From positions 1 through 62,028 of the forward strand of contig NZ_REFZ01000019.1 of assembly GCF_003841465.1 (NCBI RefSeq): a DNA stretch of 62,028 nucleotides. The letters are read 5' to 3'. Both the position numbers and the translations under genes were made by a program. The notes under the pieces are model-generated. The model was not told the DNA's origin. It saw nothing but the letters and a program-made list of their open reading frames with translations, and did not search any database. Of this stretch, positions 1,007 through 51,886 are shown in pieces (the first letter of the stretch is position 1; each line of letters begins with the position of its first letter). This DNA comes from Natrarchaeobius oligotrophus. GTDB lineage: Archaea; Halobacteriota; Halobacteria; Halobacteriales; Natrialbaceae.

Positions 1007-1358
1007 GAGGGACCGGTACAACGCATTAACGCTCCCCACGACGCACTTCTCGAGACTATAGAACGGTCGTGCATTCGAGTGAGAAGATCCCGACTGGTGG
1101 CTCGAGCCGTCCTGACGGACCGATCCCCGTAAGCGAACCGCCGTGCGACACGACGGTGCGAGGCTGCGACGATCCGCCCGTGCTCGCACGTCCGTTCTCC
1201 CCGGCGCGCGCTGGCTCGCGGCGAGCGATCGCGAGGCGCGAGGCGACATCGCGCGAGGGTGAGCGACCGCAGGGAGCGACCGGCTGGGGAGGACGAGGCT
1301 GCTCCCCGTGTTTCGTGCGAGCAGAACGCTCGAGCGGACGATACCTCGACTCCTCCAG

Positions 1359-1383
1359 CCATTACTTTGACTTTCGAAGTATT
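1359..1383. promoter_or_regulatory. Dyad motif, copy 1 (candidate operator)
   Basis: This is a 25-base element with core TACTTTGACTTTCGAAGTA, an imperfect palindrome whose outer arms TACTT/AAGTA pair exactly. A second copy 114 bases downstream differs at only three of 25 positions. It is AT-rich compared with its surroundings. It could be a binding site for a dimeric regulator; no adjacent regulated gene is evident. Confidence 0.4.
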
Positions 1384-1472
1384 TGTGGATCCGTCTCTGC
1401 CGGCTCCGTTGTACCCCGATCCGTAGCCTTCGTAAGACGAAGGACGCGTGAGCCACAACTGAGCCTCTCGAG

Positions 1473-1497
1473 CCAATACTTTGATTTTCGAAGTAAT
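1473..1497. promoter_or_regulatory. Dyad motif, copy 2 (candidate operator)
   Basis: This is the second copy of the 25-base element, with core TACTTTGATTTTCGAAGTA. The three differences from copy 1 spare the palindromic arms, which fits selection on a protein-binding site. Confidence 0.4.
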
Positions 1498-43480: not shown

Positions 43481-44653
43481 TTACGCGTCGGATCCACCGC
43501 CGAGAACGTCCCGCCCCGCCTCGAGGACGATCTCGAGTCCCGCGACCGCGTCCTCGAGATCGACGTGCTCGTCGTACGTGTGCGCCTGAGCGAGGTCACC
43601 CGGTCCCCACGTAATGGCCTGCATTTCCGCGTCGTTCACGAAATTCCGGACGTCGGTGGAGGCTTCGATACCCCACGGATCCGTCGGCGCGTCGGCGATC
43701 GCCTCGGAGTGCTCCCGGAAAATGGCAGCTAACGGACTATCCGGATCGATCGCCGCCGATTCGTACGTTCGGGTCCGTTCCCACGCCGTTTCGATGCCGT
43801 GTCTCGCTTCGACGTCGACCAGCAGTTCGTCGATCTCCCGATCGATTTGTTCGACGGTTTCGTCCGGAAGAAACCGCCGATCGACCGTGATCGTGGCAGC
43901 TTCCGGAACGACGTTCTCTTTCGTTCCGGCTTCGAGTCCCGTCACCGTCGCGTACGCCTGGCCGACTAGCTCGTCGGTCCGTTCCCTGATAGCGTCGTCG
44001 TACTCGACGAGCGCATCGAGAACGGGCCGTGATCGAACGATCGCGTTCTTCCCTTGATCCGGCCGACTCGCGTGGGACGGTTCTCCGTCGACGCGAATCT
44101 CGTACCACGCGAGTCCCTTCTCGCTCGTCGCGGTTCGGAACCCGGTCGGCTCCAGGACGACGCCGTAGTTCCCGTCGTATCCGCGCTCTAGCAGCGTTTT
44201 CGTTCCCGGTTCGGCCGTTTCTTCCCCGATAGCAGCGTGGAAGACGATCGATCCCGAGAGATCGCCCGATTCGATCTCGTCGGCAAACTGCGCCGTCGCG
44301 AGCATTCCGATCGCGACGCCCGTTTTCATATCGGCGCTCCCACGACCGTACAGCCGGCCCTCCTCGATCGTCGGCACGTACGGATCGTGGTCCCACTGCT
44401 CGCGATCCCCGGCGGGGACGACGTCGATGTGTCCGTTCAGGATGAGTTCCGGAGAGCCCTCGCCAACTCCGACGCCGACCTGGGGTCGATCGGGATCGGG
44501 TTCGAAGACCAGTTTCGCGCCGATATCACGTTCGGCGAACCAGCCTCGAATGTACTCCGCACATTCGCGCTCGTTTCCGGGCGGGTTCTCCGTTTCGATC
44601 GAAACCAGGTCGGTAACGAGCGCCTCCAATTCCGTCCGCCTATTCTCCGTCAT
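43481..44653 (-). CDS. ArgE/DapE-type M20 deacylase
   Basis: This 390-residue zinc hydrolase removes an acyl group from an N-acyl amino acid or peptide. Metal ligands are in LILNGHIDVVPAGD and LYGRGSADMKTG; the general base lies in HAAIGEETAEPGTK; EPTGFR follows; the dimerisation domain (residues 180-290) includes GEPSHASRPDQGKNAI. The C-terminal metal histidine is in AQAHTYDEHVDLED. It is the last gene of a minus-strand catabolic cluster, 51 bases after the carbamoylase gene. The exact substrate is unknown; ArgE, DapE and related names only indicate the fold. Confidence 0.87.
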   Translation of the reverse strand: MTENRRTELEALVTDLVSIETENPPGNERECAEYIRGWFAERDIGAKLVFEPDPDRPQVGVGVGEGSPELILNGHIDVVPAGDREQWDHDPYVPTIEEGRLYGRGSADMKTGVAIGMLATAQFADEIESGDLSGSIVFHAAIGEETAEPGTKTLLERGYDGNYGVVLEPTGFRTATSEKGLAWYEIRVDGEPSHASRPDQGKNAIVRSRPVLDALVEYDDAIRERTDELVGQAYATVTGLEAGTKENVVPEAATITVDRRFLPDETVEQIDREIDELLVDVEARHGIETAWERTRTYESAAIDPDSPLAAIFREHSEAIADAPTDPWGIEASTDVRNFVNDAEMQAITWGPGDLAQAHTYDEHVDLEDAVAGLEIVLEAGRDVLGGGSDA

Positions 44654-44704: not shown

Positions 44705-45955
44705 TCATCGATCGCTTCGAGCGACTCGGTCGGTCGCAAGCTGAAACGCCGCGTTCGCGAGCGTGTTTGCTGCCGCGTAGCAATCGTCCCAACTCGTATA
44801 CTCCTCTGGCGAATGGCTCTTTCCGCCCTCGCTGACCGCGAAGACCATACTCGCGTCCGTGACGGATGCGAGATGTGTCGCGTCGTGTCCAGCGCCGGAG
44901 ATCAACCGTTTGCTGTCGTACTCGAGTTCGTCGGCGGCCGACTGGACGGCGTCGATACACCGATCCGCGAACTCGACGCTCGGGGCCCGCATCGTCTCTT
45001 CGTACTCGAGGTCGACGCCTTCGCGTGAGGCAGCGTGCTCCGCCTCTCGGACGACCGTTTCGAACGCCCGCTCGACGACGGCGTCGTCGGGATCGCGGAA
45101 CCCCCACGTTATCCTCACCTCGCCGGGAATGACGTTCACCGAGTTCGGATCGACGTCGAGGTAGCCGACGGTCCCGACGGTCCGTTCGCCGAGCGTTCCC
45201 GGAATCCGTCGGACCTGCGTGATGACGTCAGCGGCCGCGACGAGCGCGTCGCTTCGGTGATTCATCGGCGTCGGTCCGGAGTGATCCGCCTCCCCCGTGA
45301 ACGTCACTTCACCCCACGTGAATCCGACGATACCGGTGACGACGCCGACGTCAGCCTCCGCCGTCTCGAGCGACGGGCCCTGTTCGACGTGCAACTCGAG
45401 ATACGCTTCGTACTCTTTCTGGGGGCTTGCGGGAGCCCCGCCTTTGTACCCGATCCGCTCGAGTTCGTCCGCAACCGTCTCGCCGTCGGCATCGGCTTTT
45501 TCGTACTCGTCAGCGATATCGTGCGCTCCCGCCCAGACCCCGCTTCCTTGCATCGCCGGCTGGAACCGTGATCCCTCCTCGTTCGTCCAGTTGACGATCT
45601 CGATCGGATGGTTCGGCGTGATAGCACGCTCGTCGAGCGTCAAAACGAACTCGAGCGCGGCCACGATGCCGAGCGCACCATCGTATTGTCCCCCATTGGG
45701 CTGTGAATCGAGATGTGAACCGAGCAGTACCGTCGAAGCGTTCGGATCGCTTCCTTCGAGCCGCCCGAACGTATTCCCGAACTCGTCGATGCGAACGTCG
45801 AGTCCGGCGACGTCCAGTTTCTCGAGAAACCAATCTCGGACCTCTCGGTCAGCGTCGGACAACGCGAGACGATCCAATCCACCGTCTTCGGTCGCACCGA
45901 TCGCTGCCTGCTCTCGCATCAGGCGAACGAGTCGTTCACGATCTATCTCGATCAT
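44705..45955 (-). CDS. Zn-dependent amidase of the hydantoinase/carbamoylase family (M20)
   Basis: This 416-residue enzyme's signatures are LLGSHLDSQPNGGQYDGALG, NWTNEEGSRFQPAMQGSGVWAG, LELHVEQGPSLE, FTGEADHSGPTPMNHRSDAL and AGHDATHLA. These identify the family that includes N-carbamoyl-L-amino-acid hydrolase, beta-ureidopropionase and allantoate amidohydrolase, which cleave ureido or amide groups. With the nitrilase-type enzyme and the symporter it suggests degradation of a nitrogen-rich imported compound. The palindrome at 45975-45991 overlaps its probable promoter. Confidence 0.88.
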   Translation of the reverse strand: MIEIDRERLVRLMREQAAIGATEDGGLDRLALSDADREVRDWFLEKLDVAGLDVRIDEFGNTFGRLEGSDPNASTVLLGSHLDSQPNGGQYDGALGIVAALEFVLTLDERAITPNHPIEIVNWTNEEGSRFQPAMQGSGVWAGAHDIADEYEKADADGETVADELERIGYKGGAPASPQKEYEAYLELHVEQGPSLETAEADVGVVTGIVGFTWGEVTFTGEADHSGPTPMNHRSDALVAAADVITQVRRIPGTLGERTVGTVGYLDVDPNSVNVIPGEVRITWGFRDPDDAVVERAFETVVREAEHAASREGVDLEYEETMRAPSVEFADRCIDAVQSAADELEYDSKRLISGAGHDATHLASVTDASMVFAVSEGGKSHSPEEYTSWDDCYAAANTLANAAFQLATDRVARSDR

Positions 45956-46183: not shown

Positions 46184-47128
46184 TTAAAACGGATGCGGCG
46201 TATCGTCGTATCCCAGCAATTCGTCGTAAAGGTCGGTTCGTCTGTCGCGAGGCACGACGTTCAGCTCGTTCCAGTTTTTCTCCGTCCGCGAAGCCATCAA
46301 ATTACAGTCTTTAGCGATCAGTATCTCCTCATCTTCCTGGCTAGCCGGTCCAGCAACCGATCTTCCGGTCGGGTCGACGATAATGCTCTTTCCGAGAAAC
46401 GGTTGGTCGCGCTCTACGCCGATTCGATCGGCACACGCGAACCAAACCGTATTCACGTGCGCGTTCGAAATGGCGAGATGATTCGCACGAGCGAGTTCGT
46501 TTCGTTCTAGCGTAGCGGACTGTTCGTCGGCCGTAATGGGGACCCAATTCGTCGGCTCCGCGACGATATCGACCCCTTTTTGGGCCTGGATTCGCGTAAT
46601 CTCCGGGAACCACTGATCGTAGCAGACTTGCATTCCGATCCGTCCGATCTTCGTATCGAACACTTCGATCTCGTCGCCGGATTCGAACCAGAGCTTTTCT
46701 TCGTTCCAGAGATGGAGCTTCCGATGCGTTCCGACGTATCCGTCAGGGCCGAGTAGCACTGCCGAATTATAGAGTACGCCATCGTCCACTTCGGCGTATC
46801 CGCCGACGATGTAGATCTCCTCCTCTTCGGCGATTTCTATCCACCGTCGAGCCGTTTCGCCGGACGGAATCGGTTCCGCCGACGAATATGCTTCGCCACG
46901 AGAATTGAAAACGTACCCGGAGTTCGCCAATTCAGGTAAGACGATGAAGTCCCCTCCCCGATCGACGGCATCCCGAATACGTTCACAGGATCGATCTCTA
47001 TTCCGTTCTACGTCACCGACTACTGGTTCGAATTGAATGCAGGCAATAGTCACCGTCGACTCTCGTCCAGAAACTCTCTCATCTATAGTTTGGCTGCCGA
47101 TATCTTTAGTGACCTCTCTGGATGTCAT
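46184..47128 (-). CDS. Carbon-nitrogen hydrolase (nitrilase superfamily)
   Basis: This 314-residue amidase has the Glu-Lys-Cys triad in FIVLPELANSGYVF (Glu), GTHRKLHLWNEEKLWF (Lys) and IGMQVCYDQWFPEITRIQA (Cys). It most resembles N-carbamoyl-type amidohydrolases and omega-amidases. Together with the M20 carbamoylase next to it, it may act on an N-carbamoyl or amide intermediate. The first 24 residues (MTSREVTKDIGSQTIDERVS) precede the conserved core, so a later start is possible. A TATA-like ACATATTTG near 47156 supports the ATG at 47128. Confidence 0.88.
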   Translation of the reverse strand: MTSREVTKDIGSQTIDERVSGRESTVTIACIQFEPVVGDVERNRDRSCERIRDAVDRGGDFIVLPELANSGYVFNSRGEAYSSAEPIPSGETARRWIEIAEEEEIYIVGGYAEVDDGVLYNSAVLLGPDGYVGTHRKLHLWNEEKLWFESGDEIEVFDTKIGRIGMQVCYDQWFPEITRIQAQKGVDIVAEPTNWVPITADEQSATLERNELARANHLAISNAHVNTVWFACADRIGVERDQPFLGKSIIVDPTGRSVAGPASQEDEEILIAKDCNLMASRTEKNWNELNVVPRDRRTDLYDELLGYDDTPHPF

Positions 47129-47274
47129 ACACTATCATTTCACGTCCCTCTCCAAATATGTATCGACACTCCATATTTTTGATACGCAACGTTAGCGCCC
47201 ATTCACCACTGTATCGGCACCTCGATCCATTTCTGGACCGCTTGAAGAAATCCCTCCGTGAAGGGGCGTATCGA

Positions 47275-47397
47275 TTACCAGATTTCCTTTCGCTTGAACT
47301 CTATTATAGTGTAGCAGATAATTATGGTACTGACGAGCGCTGCACCCGTAATTCCCAGTCCGACGATGAACACGAACAGCTCTTGGCTCGCTTGCAT
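47275..47397 (-). CDS. Symporter-associated one-helix microprotein (downstream)
   Basis: This 40-residue protein (MQASQELFVFIVGLGITGAA, LVSTIIICYTIIEFKRKEIW) is a single hydrophobic helix with a basic C-terminal end, predicting an N-out, C-in membrane protein. Its ATG overlaps the symporter stop by one base (TAATG), so it is translationally coupled. Small one-helix accessory proteins are known beside SSS-family symporters in bacteria and may stabilise or modulate the carrier. The frame is the only one here with a coherent membrane-protein pattern. Confidence 0.75.
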   Translation of the reverse strand: MQASQELFVFIVGLGITGAALVSTIIICYTIIEFKRKEIW

Positions 47398-48830
47398 TAG
47401 TCACTCACCTCCTCGTAGCGCGTGCCGGCGTCGTGGAGTTGCCGCCAATCGAACGTGGACGGCTGGAGGAGCGATCCGACGAACGTGACGATGAACGAAA
47501 TCCAGCCGCTCGCCACGATCCCCTGAAGATCGCCGATAGTGAAGTAGACCGCGTAGCCGACGACCGTCGCGGAGATCACTGCCGCGAAAACGACATCCGG
47601 ATTCGTTTTCTCCCACCAGAGACCGAGCACGATGGGGAACACGAAGGCAGCATTGATCACGCCCAGGAAGATCAGCATTTCGAGCATAGTGAGTATTTGT
47701 GGAAGGCTAAACAATAACCCCGCGAGCCCGACCACGATGGTCAAATATTTTCCGTACTGAAGCAGTTCGTTATCGGACGGACGGTCGTCTTTGACTCGCG
47801 GAACGAGATCGTTCATCAACAACGTCGCTAACGCGTTGATACTGGCAGCCGTCGTAGACGCAAGCGCCGTCCACACGGCTACCAAAAAGAGCCAGCCGGC
47901 AGCGTCTCCGCCGTAGATCTGTGCAACCAGCGGCGCTACCTGGTTCGGGTGTACGGGCTCTTCACCGAACCCGATAGCGACGAACGCCAGACTCGCGACC
48001 GCAAGCGGGACGAGCATCCATCCGATGCCGCTCAACAGAAACGTCTTCACGACGTCCTCGCGACGGATCGCATAGGCACGCTGCCAAAACGTGTTATCCA
48101 TAAACACTTCACCGATCAAGAACACCGCCCCCGCAAACATGAACAGGAGAGCCGTTTCGTTCAATAGATCGAGCCGTTCGGGTGCCAACTCGGCCATTCC
48201 GTTGTAGGTTGGCGCGAAGCCGACGTTGAAATAGACGAGTGGGGGAATAACGATCGCAACGACGAGGATCAACAGAACCTGGAAATACGCAACGCCAGCA
48301 ACGCTTCGAAATCCACCGTAGTACGAGTACGCAATCACCACGCCGAACGTCAGCATAACCGACAGATAGTACGGAATATCGAACACTTGCTCGAGGAGAA
48401 CGCCGCCCCCGATTCCTTGAGTGACGATCAGCCCGATTACGTACACGATGAGAAGCGAGATAAACAGGTAGTAGTTCTTCGAGTCGAATCTCCGACCGTA
48501 ATAGTCGCCGACGGTCTTTCCGTGGGGAATTACTTGATGTATCCGTTTCGAAAAGAGTCCGAAAATGACGACGGCGATTCCGCCGCCGAATCCGTAGGCG
48601 AGTGCGCCCGTGATCCCCCAGTTAAATGCGCTCTCCGGTGCCGCTAACATCGTATTGCCGGTAATCCAGAACGCGAGCAAGGAAGTCATGCCGAATGCGA
48701 CGCCGAGTTTTCCACTACCGACGATATACTCATCGGCGGCAGAAACCTTTCTGGAGAAGTACAATCCAGCCAGTATAAAAAGGACACCGAGAACGACGAC
48801 GATCCCGATATTAATCCACGGGAGGCTCAT
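47397..48830 (-). CDS. Sodium:solute symporter (SSS family)
   Basis: This 477-residue carrier has 12-13 membrane helices and the LeuT-like SSS fold. Visible are FSRKVSAADEYIVGSGKLG after the first helix, SLLAFWITGNTMLAAPESAF, GKTVGDYYGRRFDSKNYYL, VIAYSYYGGFRSVAGVAYFQ and ALASTTAASINALATLLMND. The last of these is the sodium-site helix. It imports an organic solute with sodium. Its start overlaps the stop of the upstream microprotein (ATGA) and its stop overlaps the start of the downstream one (TAATG). The neighbouring amidases suggest an N-carbamoyl, ureido or amide substrate; this is inference. Confidence 0.88.
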   Translation of the reverse strand: MSLPWINIGIVVVLGVLFILAGLYFSRKVSAADEYIVGSGKLGVAFGMTSLLAFWITGNTMLAAPESAFNWGITGALAYGFGGGIAVVIFGLFSKRIHQVIPHGKTVGDYYGRRFDSKNYYLFISLLIVYVIGLIVTQGIGGGVLLEQVFDIPYYLSVMLTFGVVIAYSYYGGFRSVAGVAYFQVLLILVVAIVIPPLVYFNVGFAPTYNGMAELAPERLDLLNETALLFMFAGAVFLIGEVFMDNTFWQRAYAIRREDVVKTFLLSGIGWMLVPLAVASLAFVAIGFGEEPVHPNQVAPLVAQIYGGDAAGWLFLVAVWTALASTTAASINALATLLMNDLVPRVKDDRPSDNELLQYGKYLTIVVGLAGLLFSLPQILTMLEMLIFLGVINAAFVFPIVLGLWWEKTNPDVVFAAVISATVVGYAVYFTIGDLQGIVASGWISFIVTFVGSLLQPSTFDWRQLHDAGTRYEEVSD

Positions 48831-48964
48831 ATTTCGCCCCGTTCCTCTGGTGTGTCACTAACCGGTTCTCTGGTACCGTACACACCAAAGAACGGTGCCA
48901 CGACCAATATCGTGAGGATCGCTAACAGTACGAGCGCCGCGTACGTCCATAGCATGAGCGACAT
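48827..48964 (-). CDS. Symporter-associated one-helix microprotein (upstream)
   Basis: This 45-residue protein starts MSLMLWTYAALVLLAILTI and ends with a polar tail YGTREPVSDTPEERGEI, giving one membrane helix and a short acidic cytoplasmic tail. Its TGA overlaps the symporter ATG as ATGA. A TATA element (AATTATAAG in the gene's direction, 48991-48998) lies about 30 bases before the ATG, making this the leaderless first gene of the operon. It has no sequence resemblance to the downstream microprotein. Confidence 0.72.
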   Translation of the reverse strand: MSLMLWTYAALVLLAILTILVVAPFFGVYGTREPVSDTPEERGEI

Positions 48965-49267
48965 GGTCACTAGTGACATAATACTCCGACTTATAATTTC
49001 CGGGTATGAGGGAGTTTAGTCGAATTACGTGGATCTAAGGCCGCATTATCGGGAACAAATTCTCCTGTAGTACATATCTTTGAAAGGAGTCCAGTATCGG
49101 TTTAGCACGAGCCTCTCGTGTCGCACGTAGTCGATCTCACTGCGTGGCGTTGATCGCGTGTTCGTGCGGTTCTCTCTCCCGGCGTTCGCAGTCGTTCACC
49201 TCGAAGCTGGAACGCTCTGAGAGACTGTGTGAGTTCATCGAGATTGAGACTACTGATCGGCAAGCCG
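48965..49267. other. AT-rich intergenic stretch upstream of the symporter operon
   Basis: It holds the operon promoter and palindrome near 48966-48998. Beyond that no convincing gene is visible; the 3' part enters the first 645-bp repeat at 49246. Confidence 0.5.
48966..48977. promoter_or_regulatory. Perfect palindrome GTCACTAGTGAC, candidate operator
   Basis: A 12-base perfect palindrome lies exactly between the TATA element (48991-48998) and the start codon (48964) of the symporter operon, over the predicted transcription start. A half-site-like GTCACTAA recurs inside the first gene. This position suits a repressor that blocks RNA polymerase. Confidence 0.5.
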
Positions 49268-49438
49268 TCATCGAATCTCGTCGATCACCTCCACCTCGAG
49301 CGACCCAGTTTCGATCACAACCCGATACCTCCGTACTCGAGGCGAACCGTGCCGTCGGCGTCGGACTCGAGCAGCGAGACGAGCACGTCGGGGCCGACAG
49401 GTTCGTCCAGCGGCGGGAATGAAATCCCGCGACGGCCC
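49268..49438 (-). pseudogene. HalOD1-like output domain remnant, copy A
   Basis: In minus-strand order, one frame reads ISFPPLDEPVGPDVLVSLL and then ESDADGTVRLEYGG before a stop. The continuation YRVVIETGSLEVEVIDEIR lies in another frame. Joined, they match the HalOD1 output domain pattern (PPL..vDPD.L..L......V.FEY.GY.V.V). No start codon of its own is evident; it follows the zinc-ribbon stop. The same frameshift is present in copy B, so it predates the duplication or the second frame is used some other way. Confidence 0.5.
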
Positions 49439-49615
49439 TCACGGGCCGCGACACGAACGAGTGCCCCAGCGCAGGCTCGAGGTCTCGCGATCGGGAACGA
49501 ATTCGACGATCGTCGTCTCGAATGCGGATTCGCAGTCGGGGCAGGCGATCGTGCCGTCTGTCTGCTCCGTTCGAACGTCGGTGCCACAGTCGCAGTGAAT
49601 GGTGAGTCGTGTCAT
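49439..49615 (-). CDS. Small zinc-ribbon protein, repeat copy A
   Basis: This 58-residue protein begins MTRLTIHCDCGTDVRTEQTD, followed by GTIACPDCESAFETTIVEF. The cysteines CDCG and CPDC form a rubredoxin-like zinc ribbon. The C-terminal RSCRGP stops just before the HalOD1-like remnant, suggesting that the two once formed one operon or protein. Copy B is nearly identical; most base differences are silent or lie in the last 10 codons, which suggests protein-level selection. A weak TATA-like element lies about 28 bases upstream. Confidence 0.65.
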   Translation of the reverse strand: MTRLTIHCDCGTDVRTEQTDGTIACPDCESAFETTIVEFVPDRETSSLRWGTRSCRGP

Positions 49616-49763
49616 GCGTAGCTCCGTCTCGAGATCCGACGTAACGGAGCACAACCCAGTTACAACCAGCACGCTGTGACACTGGCTCGGTGGGGCCGGG
49701 GCGTCAGACTGGTTCGGCGACACGTCGGCAGGTCTTTATTTCGCCGCCGACAATCGTGAGTTG

Positions 49764-49846
49764 CCTCCGCTACGCGGAGGTCGCAGTGAGCCGGAGTCCT
49801 TGCCACCAAGCAGAGTACTCCGGCTCTTTGCGCACTTTACGTGCGC
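49764..49846 (+). ncRNA. Three-hairpin RNA candidate, copy A
   Basis: A TATA element (CTTTATT, about 49734-49740) predicts a plus-strand transcript starting near 49763. Three perfect stems follow: CCTCCGC/GCGGAGG with a 3-base loop (49764-49780), GAGCCGGAGT/ACTCCGGCTC with a 19-base loop (49788-49826) and GCGCAC/GTGCGC with a 5-base loop (49830-49846). Copy B keeps all three stems while its middle loop sequence is different. No coding potential is seen. It could be a small regulatory RNA or a terminator/recombination structure. Confidence 0.55.
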
Positions 49847-49890
49847 GACTATACGTTATTCAACCAACGTAAAGAACGTTAGGATACTAA

Positions 49891-50287
49891 CCGTTGGTGT
49901 GCTGGGGTAATGGAGTCGATAGCGTTTCGAAGGACGCTCGAGTTCGCCTTTCTCGTCTCCGACGAGGCGACGTCGGTTACCCCTCGGCCGCGCCAACGGT
50001 GGGGCCTCGAGGGATTCCGTCGCCCACCCGCTCACCGGAGTTGGGATGGGGAAGAATCGTTCTGCTATCGTGGCAATGGGGAGTAGCCACGTCCTCCCCA
50101 GCCGATTCGCCCCCTCCGGTCGCTCATCCCTCGCGCAGGTTCGTCGAGCGGTCTCGTCGTCACTCGGCCGCTCGACGGCGCGCGCCACCGCTGGTCGGAG
50201 GAGCACAGTGGGACCGGTTTATCCTCACCCGTCGTATCGAAGTAGAGAGCCTACGTAGCGGTGTGAGTGCTGTTCTATGGCACCTTA
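49891..50287. other. Intergenic stretch, no gene seen
   Basis: Open frames on both strands are Arg/Pro-rich and unlike proteins. A TATA-like GGTTTATCC at about 50217-50225 points rightwards but no gene follows on that strand. It may be decayed mobile-element sequence. Confidence 0.4.
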
Positions 50288-50725
50288 CTAAACACCATCC
50301 TCGCGAAACCGAATCAAATCGACGTCGATCGGGAGCGTCTCGAAGTCGTCGTCGGCACCGGCGATCAGCGTCGCACCCGTCTCGTGGGCGAGTGCAACGC
50401 CGTGAGCGTCCGCAAACGAGATGTGTCCATCTGCTTTTACTTCGCCAGCAAGTCGCCAGTCAGCACGTTCGATCTGAATCCCCCACCGCTCGAGTGCACG
50501 GAGATCGCGATCGGCAGTTCGGAGTGAGGCCGTCGTCGGCTCGTCGTCGATACCCTCGAAGCGAGCAACGAGATAGAGTACTTCACCAGCGTTGGTTTCT
50601 GCCAGCAGTCCTTCGACGGCCCCGTCACGAACGTCTGCAAGATACTCTTCGACGACACTCCGACCCGGTTCGTCGTAAAGGTAGGCGATGATCGCTTCGG
50701 TGTCGAAGACGTACCGGTCGCTCAT
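50288..50725 (-). CDS. vapC: VapC-type PIN-domain toxin
   Basis: This 145-residue PIN nuclease starts YVFDTEAIIAYL (first catalytic Asp D8), with acidic positions in LLAETNAGEVLYLV and SFADAHGVALAHE and the final GADDDFETL. PIN toxins cut RNA, often tRNA or rRNA. Its start overlaps the stop of the AbrB-type antitoxin by four bases (ATGA), the standard VapBC order. It lies between two 645-bp direct repeats. Confidence 0.88.
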   Translation of the reverse strand: MSDRYVFDTEAIIAYLYDEPGRSVVEEYLADVRDGAVEGLLAETNAGEVLYLVARFEGIDDEPTTASLRTADRDLRALERWGIQIERADWRLAGEVKADGHISFADAHGVALAHETGATLIAGADDDFETLPIDVDLIRFREDGV

Positions 50726-51027
50726 TTATCCTCCGAGTCAGTCGGTCGGAGTCGGTCGGCACGGCCATCCTCACGCCGGCGTTCCTCGCGTTTCAGCTCG
50801 CGAACCCGATCGAGCACGTCGCCACGCTCGCGGTCAGTATCGGCGTGAATCCCGCCTAACTCTTCGAGCGACGGAATCGGTTCGACGACGATTCGCTCGT
50901 CTTCCTCGTACACGAACACCTCACCAGGGGTGTCGATCCCGAACTTCTCTCGGAGCGCCTTCGGGATCGTCGCCTGTCCCTTCTGCGAGACGCGTACGAC
51001 CTTTGGCTCTCGAGTATTACTCGACAT
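50722..51027 (-). CDS. vapB: AbrB/MazE-type antitoxin VapB
   Basis: This 101-residue protein has an N-terminal SpoVT/AbrB swapped-hairpin DNA-binding domain: VVRVSQKGQATIPKALREKFGI followed by GEVFVYEEDERIVVEPI. The C-terminal charged helix (RGDVLDRVRELKREERRRED) would wrap the toxin. The palindrome GTTGT-ACG-ACAAC at 51033-51045 lies between the TATA-like element and the ATG and is the likely autoregulatory site. Confidence 0.87.
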   Translation of the reverse strand: MSSNTREPKVVRVSQKGQATIPKALREKFGIDTPGEVFVYEEDERIVVEPIPSLEELGGIHADTDRERGDVLDRVRELKREERRREDGRADRLRPTDSEDK

Positions 51028-51032
51028 ATTAT

Positions 51033-51045
51033 GTTGTACGACAAC
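51033..51045. promoter_or_regulatory. Inverted repeat GTTGTACGACAAC, likely VapB operator
   Basis: Five-base arms around a 3-base centre lie 6-18 bases before the vapB start codon, downstream of the TATA-like CTCTATGTA. AbrB-type antitoxins usually repress their own promoters through such sites. Confidence 0.5.
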
Positions 51046-51216
51046 CTCTATGTACTACTAACTGACGGTGGGACGATGACAGATCCGTCTGATCGCGACC
51101 ATCCGGACGGTCAGTGATCAGTTCGGGAACGACTCGCATTTTCGCCGGATAGTCACAGAACGGACGTGCGAACAGCTCTATGACCCCTCACACCGAGACT
51201 ATCGATCGACAAGCCG

Positions 51217-51387
51217 TCATCGAACCTCGTCGATCACCTCCACCTCGAGCGACCCAGCTTCGATCACGAACCGATACCTCCGTACTCGAGGCGAACCGTG
51301 CCGTCGGCGTCGGACTCGAGCAGCGAGACGAACACGTCGGGGTCGACAGGTTCGTCCAGCGGCGGGAGTGTCGTCCCGCGACGGCCC
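51217..51387 (-). pseudogene. HalOD1-like output domain remnant, copy B
   Basis: One frame reads LPPLDEPVDPDVFVSLL and ESDADGTVRLEYGG, then stops; a second frame continues YRFVIEAGSLEVEVIDEVR. This copy is even closer to the HalOD1 pattern (LPPL..PVDPD). The frameshift is at the same point as in copy A. Confidence 0.5.
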
Positions 51388-51564
51388 TTACGGGCCGCGA
51401 CACGAACGAGTGCCGTAGCGCAGGCTCGAGGGCTCGCGATCGGGAACGAATTCGACGATCGTCGTCTCGAATGCGGATTCGCAGTCGGGGCAGGCGATCG
51501 TGCCGTCGGTTTGCTCCGTTCGGACGTCGGTACCGCAGTCGCAGTGGATGGTGAGTCGTGTCAT
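51388..51564 (-). CDS. Small zinc-ribbon protein, repeat copy B
   Basis: This is a 58-residue near-twin of the protein at 49439: identical through CPDCESAFETTIVEFVPDRE, then PSSLRYGT in place of TSSLRWGT. Both CxC/CxxC pairs are kept. Duplication of an intact reading frame beside a decayed partner suggests that the zinc ribbon is the functional protein of the repeat. Confidence 0.65.
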   Translation of the reverse strand: MTRLTIHCDCGTDVRTEQTDGTIACPDCESAFETTIVEFVPDREPSSLRYGTRSCRGP

Positions 51565-51714
51565 GCGTAGCTCCGTCTCGAGATCCGACGTAACGGAGCA
51601 CAACCCAGTTGCACAACCAGCACTCCGTGACACTGGCTCGGTGGAGCCGGGGCGTCAGACTGGTTCGGCGACACGTCGGCAGGTCTTTATTTCGCCGCCG
51701 ACAATCGTGAGTTG

Positions 51715-51794
51715 CCTCCGCTACGCGGAGGTCGTAGTGAGCCGGAGTGTTGGTAGGAGCCTCAGGCTCCGGCTCATGCGCACTTTACGTGCGC
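51715..51794 (+). ncRNA. Three-hairpin RNA candidate, copy B
   Basis: The same three stems as in copy A are present: 51715-51731, 51739-51775 (GAGCCGGAG/CTCCGGCTC) and 51778-51794. The middle loop is unrelated in sequence to copy A and can itself form GGAGCCT-c-AGGCTCC, an alternative inner hairpin. The promoter-like CTTTATT at about 51685-51691 is conserved. Confidence 0.55.
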
Positions 51795-51886
51795 GACTAT
51801 TACTTGTGCAACCAACGTGATGGGAGTTAGGATTTTAACTATTCCCGTTCAGAGCAAGCCGCAGCAGTCGTCAAGCAGTCGGACGT

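Follow-up and report, generated by a model that had tools for sequence, protein, structure and literature searches.

Why should the gene for a sodium:solute symporter (SSS) in the haloarchaeon Natrarchaeobius oligotrophus sit between two overlapping ORFs, each of which encodes a protein little longer than one membrane helix? The gene lies in a stretch of 62,028 nucleotides, positions 1 to 62,028 of contig NZ_REFZ01000019.1, which we analysed as a whole (hereafter, the window). Three ORFs on the minus strand follow one another in series: an upstream microprotein of 45 residues (MSLMLWTYAALVLLAILTILVVAPFFGVYGTREPVSDTPEERGEI; 48964–48827), the symporter of 477 residues (48830–47397) and a downstream microprotein of 40 residues with a C-terminal Trp (MQASQELFVFIVGLGITGAALVSTIIICYTIIEFKRKEIW; 47397–47275). 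The upstream ORF ends in GAA ATA TGA, the last bases of which are shared with the symporter ATG at 48830 (ATGA overlap, 48827–48830), and the symporter ends in GAC TAA TG, overlapping the ATG of the downstream ORF at 47397 (TAATG overlap, 47395–47399). Each microprotein has one strongly hydrophobic segment, with a best 19-residue Kyte–Doolittle mean of 2.79 (upstream) and 2.41 (downstream). The overlaps read in the sequence thus bear out a preliminary description of the locus, according to which two different one-helix microproteins are coupled to the symporter by ATGA and TAATG. That description also held the two to be unrelated to each other, which agrees with the lack of any BLASTP alignment between them and a profile–profile probability of 34%; a common origin is therefore unsupported.

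In a G+C-rich genome such as this one short ORFs abound, and the two could have arisen in the overlaps by chance. The window's own ORFs of at least 200 residues, genes and spurious ORFs alike, served as a control for chance coupling: beside all of them we searched for coupled one-helix ORFs of 30–60 residues. Such ORFs occur beside the symporter only (1 of 106), one on each side, and none of the other 105 has one at either flank. Moreover, one-helix ORFs occupy both positions in all 22 orthologous loci, which belong to Halobacteria, Bacillota and Actinomycetota; the lack of conservation in relatives that the preliminary description named as evidence against its proposal is not what we observe. 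The persistence of the two ORFs across domains, including the A+T-richer Bacillota, their low dN/dS (below) and the window control together rule out chance ORFs, to which we assign a negligible probability. As judged from these comparisons, both microproteins are very likely to be real, conserved genes.

Consensus matches around the three ORFs would outline a compact three-gene unit. A TATA-like box, TTATAA (48991–48996, minus strand), precedes the ATG of the 45-residue ORF by approximately 30 nt (a consensus match only, with the spacing judged by eye), and similar A+T-rich boxes, also read by eye, precede the upstream ORF in three other loci (L008, L009 and L010). In haloarchaea, a TATA box approximately 30 nt from an ATG implies that the transcript starts at that ATG or a few bases before it, and the upstream microprotein would thus open a nearly leaderless transcript. 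The same spacing favours the 45-residue start over an in-frame ATG at 48979, which would lengthen the ORF to 50 residues. At the other end, a candidate terminator-like hairpin that runs into T-rich sequence (47252–47265, minus strand; a weak match in a consensus scan), 10 nt past the downstream microprotein, may close the three-gene transcript.

The two microproteins are not conserved to the same degree. All 22 loci encode a homologue of the downstream protein at the corresponding position, in one case frameshifted. The downstream protein is 40–41 residues long in bacteria and 40–44 in haloarchaea, and in every orthologous locus its C-terminus is a hydrophobic residue followed by Trp. Its predicted topology is N-out/C-in, which would place its largely basic tail, with the terminal Trp, in the cytoplasm. 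The upstream protein is homologous in 16 of the 22 loci (clade 1, comprising the window and 15 further loci), where it has an early W and a G-x-Y-G region with minor deviations. The six loci of clade 2 (L025–L029 and L061) have at the equivalent position a one-helix ORF of 33–49 residues, also with an early W, that is weakly similar to the clade 1 protein (hhalign, 52%). For close pairs in which synonymous sites are not saturated, dN/dS is 0.03–0.21 for the upstream protein, 0.06–0.20 for the downstream protein and 0.02–0.09 for the symporter; values so far below 1 indicate that both microproteins are under purifying selection.

These differences bear on whether the upstream ORF encodes a functional protein at all. 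It comes first in the transcript, overlaps the symporter start, is less conserved than the downstream ORF and has a C-terminal tail of variable length, all of which would suit a translated leader that mainly sets the translation of the symporter, with the downstream protein as the only functional partner. However, a leader would need to be translated, not to have a specific sequence, and the upstream protein has kept its sequence, its hydrophobic helix and the positions of the W near its start and of the G-x-Y-G after the helix from Rubrobacter to haloarchaea, at the low dN/dS given above. This conservation counts against a leader, which we consider quite improbable.

L008, L011 and L058 depart from the full arrangement. 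In L008 (G233:C1, approximately 1349–1485, minus strand) the downstream ORF has an apparent 1-nt deletion, so that MVPIPLTVS is followed by a shift of frame to QEFFVAVV.... The symporter of this locus is intact, and the deletion would be either a sequencing error or a real loss or decay. A distant SSS (31% identical; L011 and L058) is accompanied by a related downstream microprotein and has no upstream one, and the downstream partner may therefore be the older association. No amidase operon lies beside the 31%-identical SSS of L058 (G073:C12, 6456–8100).

Orthologous trios are present in five haloarchaeal genomes (those of the window, L008, L009, L010/L013 and L012), and the identity of their symporters across haloarchaea, Bacillota and Actinomycetota is 41–76%. 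Thus, the pair that the preliminary description proposed to seek in archaea does exist there, but it is not specifically archaeal, as most orthologues found are bacterial. The symporter itself is rare and patchily distributed: orthologues at 69–100% identity were found in 4 of 292 halobacterial genomes, and a search of 100 relatives returned one other genome at E≤1e-80. A scan of GTDB contigs found relatives at 41–68% identity in Bacillota (Planomicrobium, Mesobacillus, Alteribacillus, Bhargavaea and Aneurinibacillus) and Actinomycetota (Rubrobacter, Leucobacter, Arthrobacter and Pseudonocardia). The microproteins follow the symporter closely. The Planomicrobium family was represented by 121 genomes, and both profiles, upstream and downstream, match exactly the same two of them; among 284 halobacterial genomes, both match strongly in the same four, and the downstream profile alone matches in one more. 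Across approximately 880 genomes from three classes, neither microprotein gave a strong match away from this symporter. A maximum-likelihood tree of the symporter places the five haloarchaeal sequences in a single group (support 100/100) amid bacterial sequences, with Rubrobacter and a Bacillota MAG as its neighbours. This position, together with the patchy distribution, suggests that the whole cassette passed from bacteria to haloarchaea. One of the haloarchaeal records, a Halomarina megaplasmid (NZ_CP119993.1) that carries no annotation, appears to have two copies of the cassette (L012 and L014), the second at the start of the record and apparently running across it.

The central protein belongs to the SSS family, which includes SGLT, NIS, CHT and DUR3. 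It matches PF00474 over residues 35–417 with 85.7 bits against a cut-off of 22.8 (E=4e-24). Models of two orthologues (L026 and L020; mean pLDDT 83–85) have the SSS/LeuT fold (SLC5) and align to CHT1, DUR3, SiaT, NIS and SGLT with Z scores of 25–40. By sequence, the nearest solved chain is the plant urea symporter DUR3 (E=5e-19), with which the symporter shares a similar VF-x-DN-x-(F/Y)W stretch; in the structure comparison, CHT1 (Z up to 40) scores equal to or above DUR3 (Z approximately 29–36). DUR3 differs in being a longer single chain, with approximately 25% identity to the symporter in the structural alignment, and its PDB copies were not seen to have microproteins.

The models were generated with AlphaFold from natural in-frame read-throughs, which join the symporter to the downstream protein in L026 and the upstream protein to the symporter in L020; the stop codon, read as Ser, is an artificial joint that may also constrain the topology. 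AlphaFold predicted the symporter confidently (pLDDT 80–97 for most of the core), whereas the docking of either microprotein helix was not confident (pLDDT approximately 55–62 for the downstream helix and 55–60 for the upstream helix). The same models were compared with the PDB in view of the idea that the microproteins are terminal helices that became detached from longer SSS proteins. Some alignments, those of DUR3 and of a vSGLT entry, extend to model residue 514–518, where the downstream helix begins its course; with pLDDT values of 55–62 in that helix, nothing was concluded from this comparison.

Small partners of prokaryotic SSS carriers are known, and are largely uncharacterised DUFs: DUF485 (YjcH–ActP), DUF4212 (TIGR03647/TIGR03648), DUF3311 (MctP) and DUF997 (YhdT–PanF). 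Like the microproteins, they are small membrane proteins encoded directly beside the SSS gene, often with an overlap. In this genome, three further SSS genes (L001, L002 and L004) each have one small upstream partner, DUF4212 (E=5e-20), DUF485-like and DUF3311-like, which overlaps or abuts the SSS start; the DUF485-like and DUF3311-like proteins match below the curated cut-off. The three carriers probably have one small partner each. The precedent that the preliminary description drew from some bacterial carriers therefore holds, but extends to archaeal ones. Partners of the DUF485, DUF4212 and DUF3311 types differ from the microproteins in size (approximately 80–130 residues in this genome) and in number, with one per carrier. 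Since carriers of this kind ordinarily have a single small partner, the new element here is the presence of two, from two new families, one on each side of the symporter.

That the families are new is indicated by library searches. Neither microprotein of the window matches a Pfam or NCBIfam family above noise, nor do the 35 family members that we scanned. Among the Pfam matches of these members at E≤0.1, DUF485, DUF4212, DUF3311 and DUF997 are absent, and the NCBIfam scan gave the same result; membership of a known small-partner family is thereby ruled out. Weak matches of single members to HokA, KdpF, OppC_N and similar families were judged to be hydrophobic-helix noise. One NCBIfam model, NF045580 (symport_access), describes a symporter small accessory protein in 33 positions; it is in the library and is matched neither by either microprotein family nor by anything in the whole genome. 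Searches of solved structures gave only chance-level matches to the microproteins, and a literature search found no paper on either. The expectation that ordinary annotation would miss the two proteins is thus confirmed for the curated libraries searched, Pfam and NCBIfam.

Translational coupling, co-conservation and exclusivity to this symporter are best explained by dedicated structural subunits. We consider it probable, on these genomic grounds, that the three ORFs form a single conserved cassette for an SSS importer and two dedicated single-pass membrane subunits, and likely that both microproteins are subunits of the symporter. In the proposed mechanism, coupled translation through ATGA and TAATG would yield comparable amounts of all three proteins and their joint insertion into the membrane; the core, with its usual SSS/LeuT fold, would perform ion-coupled transport; and both helices would most likely lie against the outer face of the bundle, a physical association that we infer. 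The microproteins may then help the symporter to fold, stay stable or escape proteolysis, and one of them could also tune its activity.

A model for such a role is MAP17 (PDZK1IP1), the single-helix auxiliary protein of the human SSS/SLC5 symporters SGLT2 and SGLT1. At the periphery of the carrier, the helix of MAP17 binds TM13 of SGLT2 and forms part of the fixed scaffold; MAP17 stabilises the carrier and is believed to assist its folding and localisation (PMC10803289). The microproteins share with it a single transmembrane helix, seen as one hydrophobic segment each and as a single helix in the low-confidence models, and by analogy they probably have a stabilising role as MAP17 has for SGLT2. 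The systems differ in that MAP17 is eukaryotic, is encoded elsewhere and is the one partner of a carrier from a different SSS branch; we claim no sequence similarity. When the small partner gene ahead of the SSS gene mctP was deleted in Sinorhizobium, the effect was negligible (PMC9100948), and a need for the microproteins in transport thus cannot be assumed.

The main rival to fixed subunits is a pair of conditional regulators of the MgtR or MgtU type: one or both microproteins would bind the symporter under certain conditions and inhibit it or steer its proteolysis, as MgtR, MgtU, MgtS and SgrT do with other transporters. Proteins of 28–55 residues that tune transporters or the turnover of transporters by FtsH are established (PMC10710835). 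The overlaps, however, tie the production of both microproteins to that of the symporter, which suits a fixed subunit better, and both accompany the symporter across phyla despite differing nearby regulators (PucR-like, sigma-54 activator). We therefore regard conditional regulators as rather unlikely.

Whether fixed subunits are also indispensable is a further step. An obligate three-chain SSS, with a core and two dedicated one-helix subunits in the order helix–core–helix, transferred whole between bacteria and archaea, has in our estimate an even chance of being correct. If so, it would be the first SSS with two small subunits, both from new families; to our knowledge, no earlier SSS carrier has two. 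The way in which MAP17 and other single-helix partners support SSS carriers is still under debate, and in the 45- and 40-residue pair, which extends from haloarchaea to Bacillota, each partner would be separately removable in a microbe. Curated annotation misses these conserved, likely subunits, as neither family is in Pfam or NCBIfam, and functional or structural work on the symporter alone might consequently fail for want of its partners.

The genes that follow the cassette may point to its substrate. In the window, on the minus strand, these are a CN_hydrolase amidase resembling nitrilase and N-carbamoylputrescine amidase (46184–47128; PF00795, E=2e-45), an M20 enzyme of the hydantoinase/carbamoylase family resembling allantoate amidohydrolase (44705–45955; TIGR01879, E=3e-123) and an M20 deacylase of the ArgE/DapE family (43481–44653; TIGR01910, E=4e-76). 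CN_hydrolase amidases and hydantoinase/carbamoylase-family M20 enzymes recur beside the cassette in other loci, as do isochorismatase-family hydrolases, PucR-type regulators and, in 12 of 18 loci, a protein with DUF1028. With DUR3 as the nearest solved sequence, these neighbours suggest that the importer probably takes up a nitrogen compound with an amide, ureido or N-carbamoyl group. In our best explanation, the symporter that carries the two partners is a catabolic one. DUF1028 (PF06267; for example, L018, 8901–9599) is a family of unknown function on which a literature search found no paper, and the operon of the cassette may reveal the class of its substrate.

Finally, the window contains an apparently duplicated stretch upstream of the cassette (49100–51800). 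Within it, two near-identical short ORFs on the minus strand (49439–49723 and 51388–51633) have a CxC...CxxC pattern and are zinc-ribbon-like.
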